A DNA stretch of 64,000 nucleotides from Antedon bifida (Eukaryota > Echinodermata > Crinoidea > Comatulida > Antedonidae): the NCBI GenBank assembly GCA_963402885.1, contig OY727093.1, forward strand, positions 23,683,409 through 23,747,408, read 5' to 3'. The notes under the pieces are model-generated. The model made no database searches. It worked only from the letters and a program-made list of their open reading frames with translations, and was not told where the DNA came from. Below, piece after piece: positions 1,908-61,410 of this stretch (within the stretch, counting starts at the first letter, position 1; each line of letters starts with the position of its first letter). The translations under genes and the position numbers were made by a program.

Positions 1908-2203
1908 GCTGCTTTCACGCCTGAATTTAGTCCGATGCCCTGAGAAAATTATCGTGGGAAATGAGTTGAGTGGTAAAGCATATGATCGTACAATTCGGTC
2001 TCCGAGTTCGGAGTGATTGATCAAGAAGCCATTTGTTTTCTAAAATTGTACGATTTCTTTCTTTTCTCCAATTAGCAGGTTGAGTATAAATGACCTTGCT
2101 TCGCAACGAATAACCAAATTCGTGCTCGATGTGAAAGCATGCTCAATGCTTATGAAATTATTTTAGGGAACCGGACCGAATCCTGGCGTGATGTGAAAGT
2201 AGC
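1908..2203. mobile_element. Non-autonomous DNA transposon (MITE) with TTAA target site
   Basis: A 296-bp element starts GCTGCTTTCAC and ends GTGAAAGTAGC, so the ends are inverted repeats with one mismatch over 11 bp. It is flanked on both sides by TTAA (1904-1907 and 2204-2207). Further inside, the ends stay loosely complementary (words such as GTCCG, CCCT and AAAATTAT recur inverted). A TTAA duplication is typical of piggyBac, Kolobok and Chapaev-like transposons; which one supplied the transposase cannot be told. No coding capacity. Confidence 0.7.
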
Positions 2204-2207
2204 TTAA

Positions 2208-4094
2208 GTCCACATGCAAAGGATAATAAAAATCCATATTTATATAAAATGGTTGTATGAATGTACATATTTACTAATTACTGTACATGAAAGTATCCTT
2301 TGTTTTTAATGTTTAAGATTGTCATCTTATTGTTATGTTGTTTAAATGTTACAGTAGCTGTTTAAAACATTGTGTTTATTATAATTACATACATTGGTAC
2401 AGTAAAATGATTTTCACTTTTTTTTTACATTTGATACACATGCGAACCTCACTTCCCGCTTAAGTCTGGTTTTAATACTACAATTGTTAACACTGTTTTT
2501 ACAAATTATAAAATTGTTTTTATTGTGAATTGGTAATGGTAATTCATTAAAGGAAATTTATTTATTATAGAAATATTATGAATAATTTAAGATTTAACAG
2601 ATCGTGTGTGTTTCTGTAATTATAGTTTAATTTACTATTTAATAAGATTTGTTTACTGTATATAAACTATTAACACATGTATTTATTATTTAATTTGAGA
2701 TGATTTTAAATTCTGTACTCATTTTAATACCAAGCGATAAAGACTGTGGTAGTAAATGAAACTTCCATCAATGACAGGTTGATTTTAATTTGGCAAATAA
2801 ATAATAAAATTCTTCTTTAAAACTTAATTTAAAAAGTAATCATAAACAAGCGTTCCACATGTTCTTAGAGATTTGAGCAACCCACCAGCCAAATACAATG
2901 CACTGTCATGTGTGTGTATCATAAAGCAAGCAAATCTAAATTCATACCAACGATCGAATAACAACCTGTCAGTACATGGGACTACAATTGAATTTCTGAG
3001 TTTCTGAACAACCCTTTATTGCGCTTAAGTGGATTTGTATAGAAAATCTATTTTCTTTCTAATGAGTTTTAAAATGCAGTAGCATCAGTATTTTGAACTG
3101 AAGTTACCTAATTCAACCAGGTTCTCATGGAAGAATAAATACTGTACTTGTATCACATATTAGTTCTATTGTGTTTAGTCGTGCTAGGTACACTATTATT
3201 GTTGGTGCTTTATGTAAATCAAATTTCTTTGCTTCTTTCACTGTCAATAGAAATAACATTGATTGTTTATCAGTTGTAATTCTTTAGAGTTAGTACTGTA
3301 CATTCAAATAGATTCCATTGTGAAACCCTTTCCTTCTCACTTATTTGTAGGAGGTGATGCAGAAAACATGAATTATTCATTAGTGTGTATTCCTCTACCT
3401 GATTGAATATGCATGACATGCGATATATGTAATAACTGCAAATTCATGATAATGCTTTCTATCTATTGGCTTAATGCGTAATGGCATAGTATGCGGTGGG
3501 GGTCCTGGGTTCAAATTTTACACATGTTAATTTTTTTAACTCACCGTCTTGGGTACAAGGGTTAAGTGCCAGCTTCAGCCGGTTCTCGTATTGTATCGCA
3601 CCTGCTTACGGAAACTGACACATATCATAGCATCTAACTCCTAAATATTTACCAACCTAACCCTCTAAATAATCTTTCACGATATTACAGTATACCATAT
3701 GGGATTAGGGTTGCTGTCAGAAGACGCGATACAGCAGAATGTTTAATGTCGCTAGAGGCAATACCGCTGGTGTATCGGGCAATTGCCTAGAGGGAATGGT
3801 ATTGTATCTTCATGGTCAACAGATACAACATAATAAATAATTAATTTCTGCATCATACCTTCGAGAAAAAAATATTTTCTTGCCTGCTGAATATTACTGC
3901 ATATATGATTTATTAGTGATTACCATAAAGAAATATTATTTTTTCCTATGAGAAAATAATTACTACTTACATGAAACATACAGTGTAATTCGGTTTATTA
4001 AATACAGAGTGTACTTTACACTGGATTTATTTCCTGTAGATGGTACTATAATTGATCATTTTCATATCAGTGGTAGAGGTATAAGATGTACTTT
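2208..4094. other. Intergenic; possible tRNA-headed SINE remnant near 3475-3600
   Basis: No gene seen. Near 3475-3535 a patch reads like the 3' half of a tRNA-derived SINE head: a box-B-like GGTTCAAATT lies at 3510-3519, preceded by a diverged box-A-like segment. The rest is featureless AT-rich DNA with many TACTGTA words. Confidence 0.3.
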
Positions 4095-4273
4095 TTCATG
4101 TTTAAATAAATTACTGCTTTAAATTGAATTTTAGATGTTTTTTTTTATATACTGTAGTTTTTTCCATCACATTAAAAAATATAATTCATGTTTAAATAAA
4201 TTGCTGCTTTAAATTGAATTTTAGATGTTTTCTTTATATACTGTAGTTTTTTCCATCACATTAAAAAATATAA
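4095..4273. repeat. 90-bp direct tandem duplication, two copies
   Basis: Copy 1 is 4095-4184 and copy 2 is 4185-4273. Both begin TTCATGTTTAAATAAATT and differ by single substitutions and by the length of one T run. The adjacent head-to-tail arrangement indicates a recent local duplication. Confidence 0.85.
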
Positions 4274-5187
4274 TGGTATTAAATTGAAGTGCTGACCTGA
4301 AACTAATGTCCTATCTTTTGCATTGCCTGGGTCGGCTAGATCCGACCACTCATGAGAATTAGGTTCCACCCAATGGACACATACAGACAATATGATATCA
4401 TTAATACTTTATTCTTTGACATTCAACTGTGGTATTACTTAAAGACACCATTAACTAATATTTTATCACAAAATTTAAAACAAAGCAGAAAATTAATAAT
4501 AAAATTAAGAATTAATCCTATTTCTATAGCAATAATGTATACAATTTATGTACGAGTTGACCGTAATGTTAAACTACCTTTCAGATAGGTGGGGAGGGGG
4601 TCCAAAAACACCTTTATAAAGCACAAGAACCCAAATTAAACCCAATTTCTACGTCTAGAATATTCATGGCCTCTGGAATAAATAATTAACCACACATCTA
4701 TATAAATGCAAATAAACTATTTACAAATGTTTTATAATAGTGGTTACAATCAAAGTTGCCAATGCAAGACAAGAATTTGTTAAATATTAAATTATTACAC
4801 AACAGCTACACATTTCACATGCAACAACCTTTTGATAATAACTAGCTAAAGAATCTAAGATAGATATTTTCTTTTTACAGATATTAAGCAAAATTGCTGC
4901 TCAGAACCTGGACCACAACATAGACCCAGACTTAATAAAGTTCCAAATCATTTTCAGTTAAAAAATTCTTTAAACACTATGAGCCATGCAGAGTATTTAG
5001 AGAGCAGCTTTTTGAGTGTTATATGTCAGTATGTCATACCAACTTAAATAAATTTGTTTGACTGAACTGAATAGCTTTTATACTGACTAATTTCCAATCT
5101 TGTGAGTGTCATACAGTTTGAGCACAGTAATTTAGTACTCGCTATGTACAAAATATATATCCAGACAGAATGTGTATATAGTATTAA
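4274..5187. other. Intergenic, no gene supported
   Basis: An open frame of 78 codons at 4352-4588 has no recognisable domain, and its amino-acid composition is that of translated AT-rich DNA. Nothing else seen. Confidence 0.4.
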
Positions 5188-5747: not shown

Positions 5748-8557
5748 TCAATGACTTTGACATTGGACTCGTCTACCGCCCATGTCATCATCCTCATTAT
5801 ATGCGTGATTGTGGCTTGCTTTTTGACGGTATGTTGAAGGGTCAAATGAGACTAAATCAACTTCTTCAGCGTTCTCATCTGGAATAGGTTCTTCACGTTC
5901 TGGTAGCAGACTTTCTAACTCTTTTAGTTTATCTAACGGCACAAATCCGTCACTTGGGAAGATAACGTTAAATCTGATAATTAAACGACCTTTCTCATAT
6001 GGGTTTTTATAAAACGGCATTCCTTCATTTAGGATACACTTCAGCTCATCATGTTTCACTACATCACCTTCAATGAAGAAAATAAAAAGCAACAAGATTA
6101 TAATTATTGTTGTCATTTACAGTTATAAAATATTTCATGATCCAAATAAAACAAGAGTTCAAACTTACAGATACTAACTGGTACACATACAAATTTGACA
6201 TGACACAGTTTAAAATCCAATGTCTAATAATTGTTTTAACATTTTAAAATAGTGCGTGGGTTGGGTGAGGGCTGGGCTTTTGGGTGGAGCTGTCTATACA
6301 AAACAGCTATACCAAGCAATATGTGACCATTGGTCTAACAACAAAAGAGTATAAATGAGTAGAGGCATGATTTTAAACTGGTGTATTTGATTGGCTCCTG
6401 TGATGCAGCCATACCGTATGGTTCCTCTTCATGGTAACTTGCCTCTTTAATCTCCGATTGCATTGTAATTTACTTTTTAGTTAATTAATATTATCTTTGC
6501 TTACAACACAAGGTTGTCATAGAAACAATAAACATACCTGCATGTGAAATAATGAGCAGCTCCCTGTTGTCCAAAGTCTTCAATACTTTCTGGAAACCAC
6601 AAAGAGCTTCAACTAATTTAATTTCCATTTTAATAAGAAGATCATTTCCTTGTCTCTTATAAATCGGATGTTCCTTTTCGTCAATTATAATAATGATGTC
6701 ACCCGGTTCTAAACCAGGCTCTTGGTCTCCCTCTCCCCTAAAGAAAATCTTCTGTCCATCCTTCATACCTTTATATAAAGACAAACCAATCATAATTTTA
6801 ACCTCTGCCTCTACCTTTGTATATACAGGCAAAGTACTATCAGTATATCCATCTCATTGTCACGGTGTTCTTAAAGTCTCTGGGTATCTTAACCATCACT
6901 CATCTATATTGTAGACAGTTTGTACGGCTGTTTGTTAAATACAAATTGTTCCTACTAAATGCATACATGCACATGAGGTACAAAATTTACTTTAAACTAC
7001 AGTAGACGGTTTATATGACATTTGAACATTATCTGCCAACATAGCCGCCAAACTGGCATCTAAATAACCTACTTTGGCTGTTCGTTATACATTTGTTTGC
7101 TATTGCATGCATTCATACACACAAAGTATCAAAATGAATGTTATTGTGATGGGAAGGTTTTAAACTACGTTTGGAAACCACCCTGAAGTGGGGGAAAGGA
7201 AGCACCCTCTTTGGGGTGGGTATCTTTTCTAGTTAATTACGCAAGAGCTGGTTTTGTTACCTTTATCTACATGCACCTCTAAAATCTTCCTTTCTCTTAC
7301 AATTTTCTTGCCACTACATGTTTTACAACGATCCTTTTCATTTATTCGTTCTCCTTGTCCTTCACAGCTACGACAAACAGATTGAATCTGTTGAACCATT
7401 CCAGGACCTAACTGATGTATTTGTACCTGAACTCCAGTTCCTCGACATATTGGGCACTTCTCCACTGCACCTTTTTTACCACCCTTACCTGTTTTATTAA
7501 ACATAAATATTTTTATATAATTAGTTTCAATTTTAGAAATATAGAACCAGAACTCCGATATAGTACAAATATAATTGCAACACACTTTTTGTATATTTTC
7601 AAGTCAATTGTTGCACACATTGTATTGATAATGCTTTGAAGTGACTGAACTCAGGCACTGTACAAACTAATAAATTGTTTCTTTACGAAAATGTTTATAC
7701 TGTGTATCCTTATGAACTCGTGGCATTCATTGTGGATTATGTATATTTGTAATTTTTTGGATAGAATAAAGAAATAAAATGTATTGTATTTTAATTGTTA
7801 AATTCAAATAATTAAAAAAATTACCTTCACACTTCTCACACACAACATTTTTTTGTAGAGCTAATTTCCTAACCGAAGCATTGTACATTTCCTCAAGCGT
7901 AACACTGAGTTGATGAATAACATCCTTGCCCTTACGCTCACGTCGGCCTCCACCTCCTCCACCACCACCACCGAAAAACATGTCAAATATATCCATAGGT
8001 GAAGAGAAATGCCCCTCCCCTGTGCCCCCTTCTTTGATAGCTTGATCACCACCTCGGTCATAAAGATCTCGCTTCTTGGAATCTGATAAAACTTCATATG
8101 CTTGGGATATCTGTTTAAACTGTAAAATGAACCATTTTTAAATTACTGTAGAAAGAAGCTGAATTAAAATGTTGCTAATCAACTGTACTGTAGGCTTCAA
8201 TCATAAGGACGATAACAATAAATAATATCATTTCTACAGAAAACAAAAGAAAGTTTCATCTTAAACTTTAGAACTATACTGTAGAATAATCATATTACTG
8301 TATATTGTACCATCTTTGATGAATATAATATTTTTGAAATTGGATTTGTGAATATTATCGTCACTGGTTATCGTCTGTAGTATAAACAGGCTTATAACCT
8401 AGAAAACAATTTCTTACAAACTCACTTTTTCAGGATCTTCAGGATTTCTGTCTGGATGATATTTCAATGCAAGTTTTCTATATGCTTTTTTCAGTTCATT
8501 CTCGGTTGCCTCTGGCTTAACACCAAGTAAATCATAGTAACCTGTTTCTTTCACCAT
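5748..8557 (-). CDS. DNAJA1-like: DnaJ homolog subfamily A (type I Hsp40 co-chaperone)
   Basis: Coding exons, in transcript order: 8426-8557, 7825-8119, 7261-7488, 6538-6768, 5748-6067; 1206 nt, 401 residues, all GT-AG and phase-consistent. Residues 1-66 are the J domain with HPD at 34-36, which stimulates Hsp70 ATPase. A Gly/Phe region follows, with nine consecutive glycines near 94-102. The zinc-binding region holds four CxxC pairs: C138/C141, C154/C157, C181/C184 and C197/C200; the last is CxxCxGxK rather than CxxCxGxG, as in vertebrate DNAJA1. The substrate-binding C-terminal domain ends in CQSH, a CaaX box implying farnesylation at C398 and membrane association. Length matches the family (about 397-412). 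The start is the ATG opening MVKETGYY. Expected role: cytosolic protein folding with Hsp70. DNAJA1 versus DNAJA4 is not resolved. Confidence 0.96.
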
Positions 8558-13250: not shown

Positions 13251-13730
13251 GCCATCAGTTTTTCCACCTCTCGTAAGCAACCAACTTTCTAAAACGACCA
13301 CACATCGTAAGCAACCATCTCTGTTAAGGGACCGCTTCTCATAATCGACCACCTCTAGTAAGGGATCCTCCTCTCATAAGGAACCACTTCTCATAATCGA
13401 CCACCTCTCGTTAGTGACCACCTCTTTTAAGGGACCACGACCTCTTTCTCTCTATTAAAGGACCGCTTCTCATAATCGTCAGTGACGACTCTTTTAAAGG
13501 ACCACCTCCTCTATTAAGGGACTGCTTCTCATAATCGACCATTTCCCACCACAATGACCTCTCGAAAGTGACCACCTCTATTGAACGACGACTGTCTCTA
13601 TTAAGGGACCGCTTCTCATCATTGACCACTTCCGATTATGATAAATGGTCCTTTAAAAGAGACGGTGGTCGTTCAATAGAGGTGGTCACTTACCAGAGGT
13701 CGTTCTGACGGGAGATAGTCACATAAGTCC
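13250..13730. repeat. Diverged tandem repeat with GGGACCGCTTCTCATAATCG units
   Basis: A unit of roughly 35-50 bp recurs many times: AAGGGACCGCTTCTCATAAT followed by CGACCACCTCT. Copies differ and lose or gain steps of several bases. Near 13630-13700 the motif appears inverted (GGTGGTCGTTCAATAGAGGT), so the array also forms a large imperfect hairpin. An open frame across it is a by-product of the repetition. Confidence 0.7.
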
Positions 13731-31948: not shown

Positions 31949-32443
31949 AGGCCTATAATGGCGTTGGTACAGGCATATTAGTTGGCAATGTAAAAAAAAC
32001 TCACTACCAAAACACAATACAGATATATAAATTTAAGTTATATAAAAGTGAATAAGTAAGTTAAAATTACATGAATACATTGTTTCTGCGTTATAATAGT
32101 TTTTAACATTTTACATTTCTAAGTATAAGTTTTTAAAACATTTATGTTGCTTGGACCACAAAAAAAGATTTCCAAAGTTTGCTAGTGTGGACGAGTTGCC
32201 AAACTGTAGAGAACTAGTTTGCAGAAGTTCACATCAACAGTTGTAAGCTCTGATAAATGTGGTTTCTTGTGTATACTTGGATACACCAATAAATATCATG
32301 GGTGTTAGCTGGATTAAGTATGCTGCCATTGATTTGATTGATTACATGAAAGGTGGTGCATTAATATGGATCCATCCTCACATTGCACATCACAAGATAT
32401 TGTAAGAAATTAGAACTATAGCGCCCACGATAAAACCTATTAT

Positions 32444-32502
32444 TAGTCGCATGCAAATGCGACTCTACAGCTCACTATGTCGGTCGGTTGGTCGGTCGGT
32501 GA
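32444..32502 (+). mobile_element. TCGG-core interspersed element, copy 7 (truncated)
   Basis: Begins with hairpin AGTCGCATGCAAATGCGACT, with compensating changes that keep the 8-bp arms paired, then CTACAGCTCACTATGTCGG and the TCGG tract, and stops before TAAACACTAACTC. Confidence 0.65.
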
Positions 32503-32535
32503 ATGGCAGAAAAATTGCTTACTTTTTAAATTCAG

Positions 32536-32703
32536 AAATTGATTAAAAAGAAGAAAATAATCCTTATTAAGCCTAGGCACAATGTTATGCGTGAACCCTC
32601 AGCAGATAATAATGCACTGAATGCGTGCCATAGTTCAGATTGGATACTGTCTACTGATGATGAAACTGATGATACAGCAGAGATGATTATTACAAATGTT
32701 TAA
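32536..32703 (+). CDS. Possible terminal exon, unrecognised acidic C-terminus
   Basis: After an acceptor-like TTTTTAAATTCAG, 56 codons run open to TAA. The frame starts with a Lys-rich stretch and ends with SSDWILSTDDETDDTAEMII. The acidic tail and balanced composition look protein-like. No upstream exon could be joined with confidence, so it may be a relic of a transposon gene or a chance frame. Confidence 0.22.
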   Translation, partial: KLIKKKKIILIKPRHNVMREPSADNNALNACHSSDWILSTDDETDDTAEMIITNV

Positions 32704-33193
32704 TTAAATAGTTAAATTAGGCTAGCAAAGTGCATACGAAGGTATGAAACAATTAAAACGTTATTCATTTATGAAATACACTACTGGACATGAAAACTAG
32801 GCATAAGCCTAATTTTAACATAAGATGATTAACGTGTGACGGTGATGACACCAGCATGATGTCTTGATATGATGAGACTGACTGAGAGTGTGTGAGACCG
32901 TGCCGGGGAGAGGTATTTTTTAGCCTAGGGCCTAGACCTATTATGAAGTAGACATAAGCCTAGCTAGCCTAAGCCTACTATTACACTACTAGGCCTAGTA
33001 GTACTACTAATATTTATTCGTCAGCGCATGACCTATCCTATCTATAATCTAGTAATAATTATATTATAATAATAAATTGCGAGGCAGCAAGGCACACTGA
33101 GCATGCGAGGCATAATGAAGACATTGCTTTTTCTACCATTCCCAAAATTGCGATGCATCGTTATCATTTTAATGTTTCCCAAAAGGCCAAGGC

Positions 33194-34345
33194 AGGAGTG
33201 TCTCGAAAACAGAGACCTCGAATACAGAGACCAGAGACCCGAGACCCAGGGTCTCTGTTTTCGAGTTTTTCTCGAAAACAGAGACCCCCACTAAAACGTC
33301 TCAATATTACATTATATAGGAGGTCTCTGTTTTCGAGAAAAACTCGAAAACAGAGACCCCCACTAAAACGTCTCAATATTAAGTCAATATTACGTTATAT
33401 AGGAGGTCTCTGTTTTCGAGAAAAACTCGAAAACAGAGACCCCCACTAAAACGTCTCAATATTAAGTCAATATTACGTTATATAGGGGGTCTCTGTTTTC
33501 GAGAAAAACTCGAAAACAGAGACCCCCTATATAACGTAATATTGAGACGTTTTAGTGGGGGTCTCTGTTTTCGAGAAAAACTCGAAAAAAGAGACCCCCT
33601 ATATAACGTAATATTGACTTAATATTGAGACGTTTTAGTGGGGGTCTCTGTTTTCGAGTTTTTCTCGAAAACAGAGACCCCTTATATAACGTAATATTGA
33701 GACGTTTTAGTGGGGGTCTCTGTTTTCGAGTTTTTCTCGAAAACAGAGACTCCTATATAACGTAATATTGACTTAATATTGAGACGTTTTAGTGGGGGTG
33801 TATGTTTTCGAGAAATCTCAAAAAAGAGACCCCCTATATAATGTAATATTGACTTAATATTGAGATGTTTTAGTGGGGGTCTCTGTTTTCGAGAAAAACT
33901 CGAAAACAGAGACCCCTTATATAACGTAATATTGACTTAATATTGAGACGTTTTAGTGGGGGTCTCTGTTTTCGAGATTTTCCCGAAAACAGAGACCCCC
34001 ACTAAAGTGTCTCGATATTACATTATATAGGGGGTCTATGTTTTCGGGAAAAGCTCGAAAACAGAGACCCCCACTAAAACGTCTCAATATTAAGTCAATA
34101 TTACGTTATATAGGGGGTCTCTGTTTTCGAGAACCAAAACTTCATCATAATTTTAGGGGGAAACATTCATACATATTATTATTGTATTGATAAATAAAGA
34201 AGAAAGAAAGTTGTTTACATTAGGCCTACTGTATTTAAATTTGCATTTTTTTGGTTTTCATTGTAGTTTTTCACACCACCACACACAAATCACCCACAGA
34301 AATACGGGTGTCTCGAAAACAGAGACCAGAGACCCGAGACCCAGG
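33194..34345. repeat. Nested-hairpin satellite with units in both orientations
   Basis: Roughly a dozen copies of a 37-base hairpin, with arms GGTCTCTGTTTTCGAG and CTCGAAAACAGAGACC around an AAAAA or TTTTT loop, are spaced about 70-85 bp apart. They are joined by a spacer CCCACTAAAACGTCTC plus AATATT (with optional AAGTCAATATT) plus ACGTTATATAGG. The spacer is forward in three units (33284-33500), inverted in six (33515-33975), then forward in two (33990-34130). The core array spans about 33240-34133. A related non-hairpin phrase, GTGTCTCGAAAACAGAGACC then GAGACCCGAGACCCAGGG, lies at both outer borders (33198-33250 and 34309-34345), the right one after 170 bases of unrelated DNA. Open frames inside are artefacts of the repetition. 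Confidence 0.92.
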
Positions 34346-34359
34346 GAGTAATTAATGCT

Positions 34360-34575
34360 CCTACCCTGAAATATGTACATATACTGTAGTTTAGTTTTTG
34401 ATTGTATTTTTGTTCTGTACAGTACACTAGGCCAGACTATATTTACACAAAATGTTTACTACTGATTGTTAAAAATAATTGATATAATAAATCAATATAT
34501 CTGAAGAAAGAACAATGATTAAAATTTTCAAAAAGTCGAGCAGCATTTTTTGTAAGAAATATTTCTTGTTTAAAT
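34360..34575 (+). repeat. Partial copy of the 1-kb repeat found at 56.6 and 63.0 kb
   Basis: Shares CCTGAAATATGTACATATAC, CTAGGCCAGACTATATTTAC, ACTACTGATTGTTAAAAATA and GAAATATTTCTTGTTT in the same order with the longer copies. It ends where the 61-codon frame would begin in those copies. Confidence 0.7.
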
Positions 34576-34768
34576 ATGGTCTTTTATAATTTGTTTGCGT
34601 AACATATTTTTGGTCAGAAAAAAAAAACCCCAAAACATGGCCAACACAATTGTTTTTTGAGCCTAAACAAACTTCTATATATAAAAAAAAATTAATAAAT
34701 AAAAATTCTCTTATTTTTTATTTCAGTGATAAAGTGTACATCTTGAGTTATTGATGTAAAAAACTAAG

Positions 34769-36434
34769 ATGTCAATTCCAGCTAAGTGCTTTCAGTCTTT
34801 TATCAGGTTATGTAATTGTGACCATCCACCGCCGAAATTCAACACATCACTACCAGTTATGGTCACATCAACACTTACCAGTAGGCATAGAAACCATTTA
34901 TGTAAGTCAAATGATTACTTAGTTTTTTTCAGTTTCTGCTTCCAATTTTGGCCGGCTGCCAACTCATCTTAAGATCAGTGGCATAATGCCTATAAGTGCT
35001 CACTGGCTAAACCCAAGGGCCTCAGAGCTTTAAGAGGCCCCAGTGCATAAGCAGCCCTCAATACAAATACATAGCATTGGAAGGCCCCTTGTGAGTGCTA
35101 AACCTGATGCCTTTCCCCAGTGTTGACATTGGATTCAAAATTAAACTACCAAACTAATTGAATTGGTGTGTTTAAAGAATCCATAATAATGAATATAAAA
35201 TATATTTTGCTTACAATTTTGAGATTTTAATTAGAACTGTACATGGGCCTCTGTGCCAACAAATTGTAATATTCACTTTAGGTTTACCCAGGTGAATACA
35301 GTTCTATTCACTGGGGCATTTGATGAATAGTAGGCCTACTATTTTAGAGACATACTTTTACTTTTAACCAGAAGCCATTGAGGAAAATTTCATGTGTGTA
35401 CTACAGACAGAGACATGATTTTAAACCAAGTATTGTCTAATGATGACGATGTTAAAATACTTAATGAAGTGAAATTATTTTATATATTTTATACAGTGAT
35501 TTACAGTTCGATGTTTGGTTTATTAATACTTGTTTTCATGGTTTTGGTTTTTGTGTGGAAGATTCATTCACGGTATGCATACTGTAGATTGATTTTATCT
35601 ATTTGTTATAATGTTGCATGTTTTAGTTTTAGTGAAATCCAGCATCCTGGACTCTATTGAAAATCACAAACCCTTTGAAATTCTACTTTGCCTGTTTGTC
35701 ATCCTCTGTTTTGTATTAAGATAAGAATGAGATTGTTTTAACATTTTTGATTGAGTTAAACTTCTACTGAACATACTGTAGCATTTAACTTGTATCAATC
35801 TTACAGATAATGAAAACACTTTTGCAACTTTTAAAAATAGAATTGTTTTATAAACATTATGAAAATCAGTTTTGTTTAAAGGTTTGCCTAGCGAAAATAA
35901 ATTTGTTTGAAGCATATTGATTGAAAAGTCGAGAAACGCAATAATTCTTTTTAGAACTACATACAAACTTTATATCAACATACAGTATATGAAAATCAGT
36001 TTATGTGTAATTAGGAACATTTCTTTGTTCTGCTTTTTTGCCTTATAACTTCTCTTTTGGGTAGAGGGCACCGCATGTTTCTATTGTCCTACTGCACCTT
36101 CTTCTATTGAATGAAATAAAATAAAACAATCTGGCCTAAATGAAAACACTGAAAAAGAGAGCCCTGTACTGGGAGAATACTAATATTCACTTTTAACTTT
36201 GTGTCAAACGTGTGTAAAATCTGTAAGAATTTCTTTCAAAATAGCATGTTAAACTAATGGCTTGTGTTGTCCTTTTATTACTTTTATTGTTTCCAACATT
36301 ATTATTTGGTCGGTAAATTTTGCAATTATTTTTTCTTTAATTTAATTTTCAGAATTGCATCATATTCCTTTGGAAAGACCCCACCACCTGATATGTCTGT
36401 TGTTAGTGTTGTGAATGGAATTAAAAAACAATAG
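34769..36434 (+). CDS. Small single-pass membrane protein, unrecognised
   Basis: Coding exons 34769-34901, 35407-35572 and 36353-36434; 381 nt, 126 residues, phases 1 and 2, all GT-AG. A 5' UTR acceptor (TTTTTTATTTCAG) ends at 34726. Residues 1-67 are polar with one N-x-S site (NTS, from residue 26). Residues about 70-95 form one long hydrophobic helix (YSSMFGLLILVFMVLVFVW), followed by a basic KIHSR stop-transfer and a 26-residue Pro/Ser/Val tail ending GIKKQ. There is no N-terminal signal peptide. Size and layout resemble KCNE-type potassium channel accessory subunits, but the KCNE juxtamembrane signature is absent, so I make no family call. Precise phase closure across three exons is the main evidence that it is real. 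Confidence 0.7.
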
Positions 36435-42800: not shown

Positions 42801-45800
42801 CTATTTTAGTATTTTTGGTGGCCCCAGACCTAGAGTTGGTGGTGGCGGTGGCGCTTGCTCAACCTTGTTTTTGGGTTTGAAGAAACCCGCTATGACACAA
42901 CAACAACCGATTGCTAAGACCACTACTGAAATAATGGTTAGTGACATCAATAATATTATCATTGGTGCAACCGTCAAATCACTGCTATCTGTAAAAAAAC
43001 CAGAAAGATATATATTTAAATATTAATATCATTTTAATTATTATAGTTTTCCATTTATAAAAACAATATTGTTGCCCTCAGAACAGTAATATTTCACTAC
43101 CTACACATTAGAAATTAGAAACAGAAATCTAAGTTACAATTATGTGTAACGTACATTGTACTGATTCGGTTGACATTCGGTCAGTTATATTCTGCGTGGA
43201 ATATCCATTTGTTGGACCGTATGATTCCATTCCAGCTTCTGATATAGTAGGCCTATTCCCATTTCCACCATTTGTAGATTTAGTAGTTCTGTAACCACTG
43301 TGCTCCGATTCAGTAATCTCCGGCTCATTATCCGCCGTTCCGTTACTCAATGACCTACTACGTTCTGTTCCATTATTCCATTCATTGTTTCCCGTTCCAT
43401 TGTTTCCCGTTCCACTGTTTCCCGTTCCATTGTTTCCCGTTCCACTGTTTCCCGTTCCACTGTTTCCCGTTCCACTGTTTCCCGTTCCGTCTTCCCCCGC
43501 TCCATTACTCCATGACCCACTATTTCTTAAAGTACTGTTTTCTACTCCATCGGCTCCCGCTTCATTGTTCCCCGCTCCGTTGTTCCATGACCCACTGTCT
43601 CCCGAAGTATTGTTTCCAAGGCCACCGTTTGAGCTTGAATTCACTGGTGTTTCAGTAGTCCAATTATGTCCCATTTGTCCGTTTTCTGATCCATACAACG
43701 TGTCCTTTCCGTCATCCCCTTTCGACGTTACATAAGGTCTGCCAGACATCTGAGTTGTTTGACCATAACCAAGGCCAGTATTATATTCGTAAACGGATAA
43801 ACAGTCTGTGGGATCGCAGCTACAGTTGAACATAGTCACTGGTTCTCCTGTTATTGACGTACAGTTACAAATGTATATCACACAGATGACTCTAGATGAT
43901 GATGAGCAGGTACCACAATCAGTATAGTTACATGTACAATTAGGTGCAAATACTGTTATATTGTTAGAATCTGTCATTGTAGTAACTTCATACTTGTATG
44001 TGCTATGTTCTGTTGTGGTATCTTCATGGCTACCCGAATTTGTTTGATCAACGTGACCTATTAATTTAAAAAAAAACACCACATTAGTTTGTTTAAACAA
44101 ATAATTTATAGAGCTTGGATACATCGGAAGAGAAGAATACCAGAGTAGAGTAGGCCTATTAACACTAAAACAAAGAACAATAATCGTCTTCTTAAATCTG
44201 AAAAAGAATTCCAGATAAAACTGAAACCGTTTTGATATTCTAGAGAGTATACATACAAAATATGACATTGAAGGAAGAAACACAATTGAAGTGCTTTCAG
44301 AGATAAAGACAAATATACCGCCTCTAGATACTAAATAGAAATAGCTGGAGAAATAAACTATAAAACGAGAGAGATCACCGTATAATATTCTGAAGTAGTG
44401 GTTTGAGGTGTTGAAGCATTGACGGAAATAGAGAAGACAATAATATTAATTAGAGAGTGAAGATTAAATTCGGAACAGGAAAAAAAAAGTTAATCTGAAG
44501 ATGCATTGTAAAAAAAAAGCAGGGGTAGAAACAACCAACCAAGAGAAAAGTACCGGTATAAAATACAAATTAAACATGGGTGACACTAAAGAAGAAAACT
44601 ATTTGCAATAGTTTATCCTAAATAACAATAATGTGTAGGAAAGTGGTTAATAAAACAAACTAGAAGGGCACTCAGAGTGCACAAACCTCCGCCTAGGCAA
44701 ATGTAATGACGTGTTCCCACACTATACAGCTTGAAACCATCCATTAATAAAAATCGGCCAATAAGTAAGTTGAGTAATCCTGCTAATAAATAAGAAACAA
44801 ATACACGCACGCACATACACGCGCGAGAAGAAAGGCCGTGAAAGAGAAATTATTAACAACCCAATGAACGATTGAGAGTAGTATGTTGTACTCCAAGATT
44901 GAGTTTGACACACCAAAATTAGAAAAATCAGAAACACTGACTGATTTTCCCTTTGTGATGGACAAGAACATTTTTAAATTGTTGATAAAGAGAGATATGA
45001 ATTGAAAAAGAGGAAAAATCAGAAAAATAGGAAAACGGAATAAAACAAGAAAATATTGGATGATTGTCAAGGAACAAACATAGAAAAAAAAATGAAAATT
45101 AGGTATAATTCAGGAAAAAATGGGAAAAAGAACAAGGAGGAAAGGACATTTACACTGATATGACATTTCATGTCAACATATTGAGATTCGCACTGACAGC
45201 ACTTTTGGCATAAATTATTATTTGTCACATTACCATGTGATCATAATGTGAAATCAAAGTCACAATTAACTTGATTGTTTTACCTATGTGACAATCAGAT
45301 AACATATCGATGTTTATATCTTGAACCAATAGCCGTCTTATGATGCGAGGAGGGTTTAGTTGAAATAAATGGCCACTTTCACGGTCGATCCGTATTCCCG
45401 TACTCGATATTTGTATTTTTACTGTTTCGTGTTTATCATTCTGTACCGCAGTGTCGTATACTGTTTGGTTCCTTCGTGGTCCTGAATTTATACTTAGATT
45501 GTCTAACGTATATGTGATTATAATGTCGTCTTCTGTTCCATTTGTTGACAACTGTAGTGTAAATGGTTTTGGTTTGGTAACAACAACACTTATGTGTATA
45601 GGCCCATCTTCTATGTCGGGTAAATCAATATAGCAGTGCTCCCTTGTCGCCCCAATAACACATTCTACGCAGAAAAAGTGAATGCGCAATATAAGTATTA
45701 ACAAGTATTATTTAAGACTCAAGATTCTTAGTTATATTAGTAAATAATAAAATAAATAAATATAAAAATAACCCATATTTTAATGCATATTTTTATTAAA

Positions 45801-59570: not shown

Positions 59571-61396
59571 TTAAAAATAGTTGAAATTATTTAAGGAAGT
59601 AAACTGAACACGATTGAAAAGGTAGCTTTTAATTAGTTTTAAAGGAAGGCCTCTGATACCGTAATTTGAAAGTTTATGAATTAAAATATCGTGGTTAATA
59701 GTATCGAAGGCCTTAGATAAATCAAGGAAAATGCCAACAGAAAACTCATTTTTACTCAGGGCAATTGTAATTTTGTCAAAAATATCTAATAAAGCAAGAT
59801 CTGTTGAATACTTTTTCCTGAAACCATATTGGCCTTTAAATAAAATGTTATGTTTAGTTAAAAAGGAAGAAATTCGATTATGCATAATTTTTTCAATTAA
59901 TTTTGAGAAACAAGGAAGTAGGGGGATTGGTCTGTAGTTATTGAAATGGTGAGGATCTTCTTTCTTGTAGATAGGGATGACTTTAGCTATTTTAAAAGAA
60001 TCGGGAAAAATACCGGTTTGAAAAGAAGTATTGAAAATGTGAGTTAAGGGATTGCATATAAAATTAGAAACATGTTTAATAATTTTATTGGAAAACCCAT
60101 CAAACCCAGGAGATTTATTATCTTTGAGGGAAAGTATTATGCTGACAACTTCATGTTCGGTTACTGGACTAAGAAAGAGAGAATGCACACATGGACGAGG
60201 TAGGGTAGAAGTATAATTATCATTATCCGACACATGTATTTTGTTAACTAAATTTGGCCCTATATTAGTAAAATAATTATTGAATTCAGTTGCAATTTGT
60301 TGAGGATTATTTAATTCAATGTTATTGTTAATAAAGTGAGAAGGAAACGGTTTACGAGATTTCTTGCCAAGGACTCCATTTATTGTTTGCCAGGTTTTTT
60401 GGATGTTATTTTTATGGAATTCAAATTTGTCACTGTAATAATTCTTTTGGGCAGTACGAAGGATTTTGGTAAGTACATTACGATATTTAACATATTTATC
60501 TTTGTCCTTTTGCTTTTTAGATATAAGAAATGTTTTATATAATTTGTGTTTTTTGTCGATAGATTTAATTAAACCTTTAGTTATCCAAGGTTTCTTTTCT
60601 TTCCGAATATTGCGTCTGGAACGAGTGGTTTTAATGTTGTTATTATATAATGTACTAAAAATGTCGTTGAATAATGCGTATGCCTCATTGGGTTCATTTG
60701 AGTTATAAATACTAGTCCAGTCAACATTTGACAAATCATTACTTAAGGCAGAAATTGAAATATCATTGACTTTTTTTATGTATATATATTTTGAATTTGG
60801 TTTCAGGTGTTGGAGAGGTTCTGATTTATGTATTAGCAAGAAAACAGGAAAGTGATCCGAGATGTCCGAATATAGAATTCCGGAAGAAATGTTATCGTAT
60901 AAATTGTTACAAAAAATATTGTCGATTAAAGTTGCAGAATTACGCGTAATTCTAGTTGGCCTAGTAATAAGAGGGTAATAATTGGATTGAAATAAAGTAT
61001 TAACAAAATCAGAAGTTCCTTTGTGTGTTTTAGAATTTAACAAGTTAATATTAAAGTCTCCTGAAATATATGCTGTTTTTTTCTCATTATTAATGGTGTC
61101 AATTAAGTTAGAGATATCTTTATTAAATGTGTTAATGGATAATTCAGGCAAACGATATACTACTCCAAGGATTATGTTTTTGGGTTGTGCATCGATTTCA
61201 ATGAAAAGAGATTCCGAACCATTAGTAATGATAAATGATAAATCAGGGCGAAGAATATATTTAAATCTCTGGTGTAGATAAATGGCAACGCCTCCCCCTG
61301 GTCTATCAGCTCGTGGAACATGCAAGAGGTTATAATTGGGAATGTTATAAAAGGAAAAGGGCGTATTATGATTAAAAAAAGTTTCTGTGAAACATT
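59571..61396 (-). mobile_element. LINE with a 584-codon open frame (endonuclease plus partial RT)
   Basis: Minus strand, one uninterrupted frame; upstream of 61325 it stays open to about 61396 (ECFTETFFNHNTPF). Endonuclease marks: RADRPGGGVAIYL, SGDFNINLL, DNIFCNNL and SDHFPVFLL. Reverse-transcriptase marks: DNKSPGFDGFSNKIIKHV, NNYRPIPLLPCFSKLIEKI, GQYGFRKKYSTDLAL, and FLDLSKAFDTINHDILIHKL, the last carrying the first catalytic Asp. The frame stops after LFNRVQFTSLNNFNYF, before the GVPQGS and YxDD motifs, so the enzyme is incomplete and the copy is dead. CR1/Rex/L2-like clade by motif style. The missing 3' end is unusual, because LINE insertions normally lose the 5' end. Confidence 0.85.
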
Positions 61397-61410
61397 CGCT
61401 ATCAACCCAT

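Follow-up and report, generated by a model that had tools for sequence, protein, structure and literature searches.

Within the 64,000 nucleotides analyzed here (the window, C1:23683409-23747408), a run of closely spaced hairpins is joined by spacers that change direction, which raises the question of whether such DNA is a satellite that grew in place or the remnant of a mobile element.

Organization of the Hairpin Array

The region 33250-34131 contains eleven hairpins (one degenerate) and a half, joined by eleven directional spacers. Each unit is built of the arm GGTCTCTGTTTTCGAG and its complement around a 5-base loop (mostly AAAAA or TTTTT), followed by the spacer. In 10 of the 11 spacers (the one beside the degenerate arm is left out), the length is either short (35 bases) or long (45-46 bases), and these two forms give units of about 72 and 83 bases. 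The order from 33196 to 34346 is a terminus, three forward, six inverted, and two forward units, a half hairpin, a stretch of 174 bp, and a second terminus (table 1). Both arms are within three mismatches in the ten hairpins other than the degenerate one. Nineteen exact arms (GGTCTCTGTTTTCGAG / CTCGAAAACAGAGACC) were found in the window, all within 33202-34327, compared with none in 20 mononucleotide shuffles of the window, which excludes chance as their source. The coordinates and layout of the flipping array in an earlier, sequence-only reading were accurate, with spacers in the exact pattern 3/6/2, and its description of the DNA as palindromic at two scales was right, because the array also forms inverted repeats beyond the hairpins, of up to 217 nt at 93%.

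Table 1. Features of the hairpin array and the adjoining sequence, in window coordinates (numbers in brackets are start positions)
Position	Strand	Feature	Basis
33196-33249	+	Left terminus T: GAGTGT + CTCGAAAACAGAGACC, a second copy at a 15-bp period, then AGAGACCCGAGACCCAG	Repeat family and period search
33250-33487	+	First arm: hairpins (33250, 33322, 33405); three forward spacers (33287, 33359, 33442)	
33488-33524	No strand	Hairpin at the first direction change (33488): perfect arms, AAAAA loop	
33525-33960	-	Second arm: six inverted spacers (33538, 33621, 33693, 33775, 33856, 33939); hairpins (33560, 33643, 33715, 33797 degenerate, 33878)	
33961-34131	+	Third block: hairpins (33961, 34033); two forward spacers (33998, 34070); lone half hairpin last (34116)	
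34132-34305	+	Stretch of 174 bp, 98% match to C1:13669968-13670140	
34306-34346	+	Second terminus T (GGGTGTCTCGAAAACAGAGACCAGAGACCCGAGACCCAGGG), direct, not inverted, relative to the left T	

The two termini correspond to a phrase that had been noticed on both outer sides of the array and taken as a sign of growth from one founding element. Both copies are indeed present on the plus strand, the second of them in direct orientation, and growth from a sequence related to this phrase was borne out, since the core of the terminus is identical to the hairpin arm. In particular, the inner 16 bp of T, after GGGTGT, match the arm at 16 of 16 positions, and each array hairpin consists of two such 16-bp cores (CTCGAAAACAGAGACC) facing each other across the loop. 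The array is thus end sequence multiplied as inverted pairs. The first six bases of T are GAGTGT at the left terminus of the window, compared with GGGTGT in most other copies, and tandem-repeat analysis showed a 15-bp period of the core at 33202-33232.

Folded as DNA, three of the hairpins gave -19.2, -19.2, and -24.1 kcal/mol (z -8.6 to -10.3). For 930 nt of the array folded as RNA, very long duplexes were predicted at -674 kcal/mol, with z -48 relative to 20 shuffles. Double-stranded RNA and cruciforms are thus physically plausible. A structured RNA was also considered and dropped: nothing in the window scored high enough to pass the gathering threshold of an Rfam family, and ARAGORN, set to the bacterial code, reported no tRNA there. 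Misassembly is unlikely to be the only reason for the direction changes, because the units differ from one another and similar flips occur at two loci on other contigs (L011 and L026).

The 174-bp stretch does not belong to the array and is instead a copy of a place about 10 Mb away on the same contig. Beyond the 174-bp match, that source place showed no further match to window positions 32001-36000, and it is nearly unique in the genome: a 621-base query returned, besides itself, the window, a partial copy (94%) at a distance of 20 kb, and three short matches. One edge of the stretch adjoins the half hairpin, and the other meets the second T exactly; the stretch reads as a captured or filler fragment that may have been picked up in repair or transposition. 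Derivatives carrying pieces of host genes are described for the Muta1 element in the accessible part of its report (PMC5225508).

Elsewhere in the window, an open frame on the minus strand at 59571-61409 matched a reverse-transcriptase domain (PF00078, E 9.3e-16), together with an endonuclease-like match just below the cut-off, and belongs to a LINE-type element. With a DnaJ_C match at E 7.6e-21 and a DnaJ match at E 4e-06 that falls just short of the cut-off, frames at 6491-8137 (minus strand) resemble exons of a chaperone gene of the DnaJ type. About seven 15-bp repeats (TGTTTCCCGTTCCAC) at 43386-43488 lie within a minus-strand stop-to-stop frame of 438 aa, the second half of which is rich in G, N, S, and T and which had no Pfam match at E 0.001. 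A diverged 17/34/51-bp tandem repeat, CCACCTCTCATAAGG..., occupies 13264-13438.

A Dispersed Family with a Common Terminus

We addressed the distribution of the array by searching the genome (315.6 Mb in 27 contigs). The exact 16-bp arm occurred 77 times, 37 forward and 40 reverse, compared with no match for a reversed control pattern. By our grouping, which counts exact matches and not diverged copies, these arms form 19 clusters on 8 contigs, some ten of which hold a single exact arm. These results indicated a dispersed, low-copy element. Satellite DNA in the sense of long, high-copy tandem arrays was therefore rejected, and the earlier view of the array as a satellite without a described layout was not supported: the same units are dispersed, with distinct flanks and a common terminus, and inverted, repeat-filled arms are a known foldback architecture, seen in Muta1, Tm1, and Tetris.

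A search with the whole array gave at least 108 matches (40 of the 86 candidates scored), and 18 regions from arm clusters and 20 further regions were analyzed as named loci. The better copies, on C1, C7, C8, C12, C14, and C15, carry array units. The terminus T (GGGTGT + CTCGAAAACAGAGACC) is common to those on C7, C8, C12, C14, and C15, and the flanks differ each time, which is the dispersion expected of a foldback family; the copy at C1:22.139 Mb (L010) is without T. Among the matches listed, eleven degenerate relatives of the array, each of about 170 bp and in a single orientation, lie at 11.6-15.6 Mb on C10. The six of these that were compared have homologous flanks (one in part), indicating that they are passengers of a dispersed duplicated segment rather than separate insertions.

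Inverted Arms around an Internal Module

Four loci share an internal module of about 460 bp: L010 (456 bases, the reference), L026 (96%), L025 (95%), and L011 (89%, 351 bases). Most module-search matches (46 of 50) were shorter pieces at other dispersed repeats. Relative to the module, 18 of 21 spacers on one side, 6 of 7 on the opposite side, and 24 of 28 in total had the orientation expected for inverted arms; spacers are present on both sides in L011 and L026 and on one side in L010 and L025. The four exceptions comprised three in L011, one of them past a foreign stretch of 1.4 kb, and one in L026. T lies on the same side of the module in all three of the four module loci that have it. With a different interior, L023 shows T, three forward spacers, the interior, and an inverted spacer. 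Two long inverted repeat arms around an interior, as in foldback elements, were therefore observed at L011, L026, and L023; in the window the arms adjoin with no interior between them. Neither L026 nor L023 has an interior stop-to-stop frame of more than 89 aa, and no transposase gene was seen in either interior.

As spacer orientation tracks the side of the module, the first flip in the window is most simply explained as two arms that met after the interior was lost. The second flip, which leads into the last two forward units, lies outside what this rule explains. Single reversed units were observed at the arm edges of L011 and L026, which indicates that occasional turning of units happens as well.

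Two of the arrays carry insertions of other kinds. In L011, a MITE with the ends AGATGTATTGTCCCCC / GGGGGACAATACATCT lies inside an array spacer (4309-4654 of the locus; C7:19587808-19588153) with TTAA on both sides, a piggyBac-like pattern. In L012 on C8, a 2.9-kb insertion (1932-4813 of the locus) with inverted-copy ends GATCAGGTGCCGTTTTCGGCCACCTCGACTTG splits a hairpin array.

Search for a Second End in the T Family

None of the nine T termini examined, at eight loci, had an inverted partner within about 1.0-4.5 kb beyond T (about 1.0-1.4 kb in L021, L025, and L084, 2.4-2.6 kb in L023 and L026, and 4.5 kb in the rest); the matches that the scan returned were internal hairpins. These nine exclude several T-like places, such as C1:9767847 and C11:16965015. 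Also left out was C8:24490288 (L013), which has one mismatch to T, because spacer sequence precedes it and it reads as the inner half of a hairpin. The far ends of L010, L012, L023, L025, and L026 stop at five different points with no common motif by eye. Thus, as far as seen, the T family is one-ended.

A search for 9-mers beside T-like places at 16 loci listed no usable target duplication for the T family; the listed matches lay inside arrays, inside a tandemly duplicated host segment (L076), or among scattered AT-rich near-matches. A shared TCACAG beside both ends of L026 was rejected as a target duplication, six bases being judged too weak. L076 itself (C1:6164878-6169573) consists of three copies in tandem, spaced by about 2.2 kb, all of which begin with the T-like end of a degenerate foldback relative. 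By eye, these copies show a possible diverged inverted end, TGTGATTCGAAAACAGAGACC, which the inverted-partner scan did not list, and an imperfect duplication, TATCTTCGG / TATCGTCCG, matching at 7 of 9 positions. The right end of the degenerate array L085, ...CTCTGTTTTTGAACACCC, likewise resembles an inverted T by eye and was absent from the scan list.

Related Termini and the MULE Association

Termini related to T do occur as inverted pairs. Three types were recognized, R1 (GGGTGTTTCGAAACTAGAGACC), R2 (GGGTGTCTAGAAAACTAAGACC), and R3 (GGGTGTCACGAAACCTAAGACC), and among the places listed (166 counted) there were at least four R1, at least one R2, and at least eight R3 pairs. The pairing, by nearness, is ours, and the ends were read for three R1, one R2, and three R3 pairs. 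Target duplications of 9-10 bp flanked all seven pairs read, two of them imperfectly. The three R3 pairs have perfect 10-bp duplications with three different flanks (GCACAGACAC, CGTATACGAC, and GGATATTTCG), and the R2 pair has ATTACTTTG / AATACTTTG, matching at 8 of 9 positions. In R1, the 9-bp duplication GTTTTTAAC stands on both sides in L096 and L097 (9/9) and in L095 at 8/9; these three pairs count as one event, since all lie within one host repeat. According to the accessible part of a 2019 survey, which also records MULEs without TIRs, Mutator-like elements are marked by duplications of 8-11 bp (PMC6446971). Inverted repeats at both ends, a typical MULE feature, were present in the R1-R3 pairs and at none of the nine T termini examined.

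The interiors of the three R1 copies (L095-L097) are tandem copies of another unit, of the type GGGTCTCCCTTTTCGTATATTA, enclosed by the two R1 termini. This unit matches the R1 core at 12 of 16 positions, as do 59 of 20,000 shuffles of the unit, both unit and core having been chosen by eye. The R1 family has perhaps multiplied its own end too, which would hint at a function as extra transposase-binding sites.

The MULE transposase profile PF10551 had 33 matches in the genome. Six of them lie 0.7-1.6 kb from an R1 terminus, among the R1 termini listed. Another match, which has an open frame of 350 aa, is located 2.3 kb away from the degenerate array L085. The search for an empty R1 host site returned none, all six matches being the occupied right flank; thus, the association of R1 with MULEs is probably a passenger effect, in which one ancient insertion was carried along by a MULE. 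A search for the left end of the element near the MULE match at C9:11196225-11196521 did not locate it; the sole match was on another contig. On C7, R3-type inverted pairs stand 11.2 and 13.5 kb apart (C7:13719900-13731158 and C7:14488010-14501514) with no PF10551 match inside; these may represent large or autonomous members, or else separate copies paired by chance.

Origin of the Array

Taken together, the results make it likely that the array is a rearranged remnant of a nonautonomous foldback DNA transposon, probably a Mutator-like one; it is filed under the foldback type, with the Mutator link as probable, because no inverted partner was found at the nine T termini examined and the target duplications come from related families. 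A minisatellite or satellite of no transposon origin, expanded in place through slippage and template switching at the hairpins, would account for the head-to-tail blocks of 72- and 83-base units and for the stability of the folded hairpins. We consider it decidedly unlikely, as the units occur together with the terminus, and at four loci with the module, at dispersed places with differing flanks, the arrays at the loci read have at most about eleven units, and spacer orientation follows the arm. That the element is of the foldback kind and belongs to a superfamily other than Mutator, as does Galileo (foldback-like, of the P superfamily), is unlikely: neither a target duplication nor a transposase is tied to the T family itself, but its relatives R1-R3 have duplications of 9-10 bp, compared with the 7 bp given for Galileo of D. 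willistoni in the accessible text of PMC4168063, and PF10551 matches lie near relatives.

The lack of a partner at all nine T termini, together with the differing far ends of five copies, would also be expected if T were the only fixed end and any point of the array could serve as the other, by rolling-circle or one-ended transposition. Such one-ended spread is extremely improbable, given that the arms are inverted around an interior, which fits a two-ended ancestor, that R1-R3 are two-ended with duplications, that the diverged L076 copies show a possible inverted end, and that no Helitron-type end motif was apparent by eye. A related proposal, in our judgment very unlikely, makes the hairpin dyads a working device: the transposase would bind the head-to-head paired cores and take almost any array hairpin as the second end, leaving one fixed terminus and one floating end, with spacers inverting freely.

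For the preferred reading, a remnant of a foldback transposon, we propose the following course. The core would be a transposase-binding site, and its multiplication as dyads would give the ends extra sites of this kind; internal TIR repeats holding additional transposase-binding sites are reported for Galileo (Marzo et al. 2013, as cited in the accessible part of PMC4079207). Hairpin-prone DNA may gain units when it is copied in gap repair or replication. With identical inverted arms on either side of every spacer, template switching or recombination can invert a spacer seamlessly. At this locus, loss of the internal module would have joined a left arm of three forward units to a right arm of six inverted units. 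A further rearrangement would account for the final pair of forward units, the filler of 174 bp, and the second terminus in direct orientation. It has long been asked why foldback transposons carry repeat-filled ends. In this array the repeats are the exact core of the terminus in head-to-head pairs, which offers a direct test of end arrays as extra transposase-binding sites, and the array shows how foldback arms can collapse into satellite-like, flipping sequence.

Comparison with Known Elements

In the foldback and MULE literature searched, from the part that is openly accessible (most subscription papers lie outside it), we found no element with the same layout of hairpin-dyad arrays and flipping spacers. 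In the TU foldback elements of sea urchins, the outer domain of the long inverted repeats consists of 15-bp tandem repeats, a likeness by description only to the 15-bp period at the left terminus of the window. Several published families, compared here from the accessible parts of their reports, share features with the array. Rehavkus has 9-bp TSDs and a minisatellite before its 3' TIR; its transposase contains a PHD finger, and it is known from arthropods and annelids (PMC6446971). Tetris of Drosophila virilis is a nonautonomous foldback element with TSDs of 8-10 bp and a variable number of TIR repeats, which were probably derived from a portion of the terminal domain and are able to turn into satellite arrays. 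Its tandem repeats measure about 220 bp and reach 66 copies per array, whereas the units here are small, few, and hairpin forming (PMC4079207).

Tm1, a Mutator/Foldback element of root-knot nematodes, has composite TIRs in which the number of 13-15 bp tandem repeats varies, TSDs most commonly of 9 bp, and nonautonomous classes (PMC3169594). Its two outer ends bear different 7-bp motifs, so that an unlike second end in the T family would have a parallel; unlike the T family, Tm1 has complete two-ended copies, and the same account, in its accessible part, describes no hairpin-dyad array. Muta1 of Aedes aegypti, a MULE termed a "type2 Foldback TE", has TIRs made of a short, imperfectly palindromic terminal motif and many short subterminal tandem repeats, and its derivatives have truncated TIRs, variable repeat numbers, and host sequence inside; its TSDs are of 8-9 bp (PMC5225508). 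The repeats of Muta1 are 12-bp tandem units with linkers of 3-4 bp, in contrast to the terminus-core hairpins and directional spacers of 35-46 bases found here, where, moreover, none of the copies examined carries both termini. Judged by the literature seen, the hairpin-dyad arms and flipped spacers are new, and the kind of element is ordinary.
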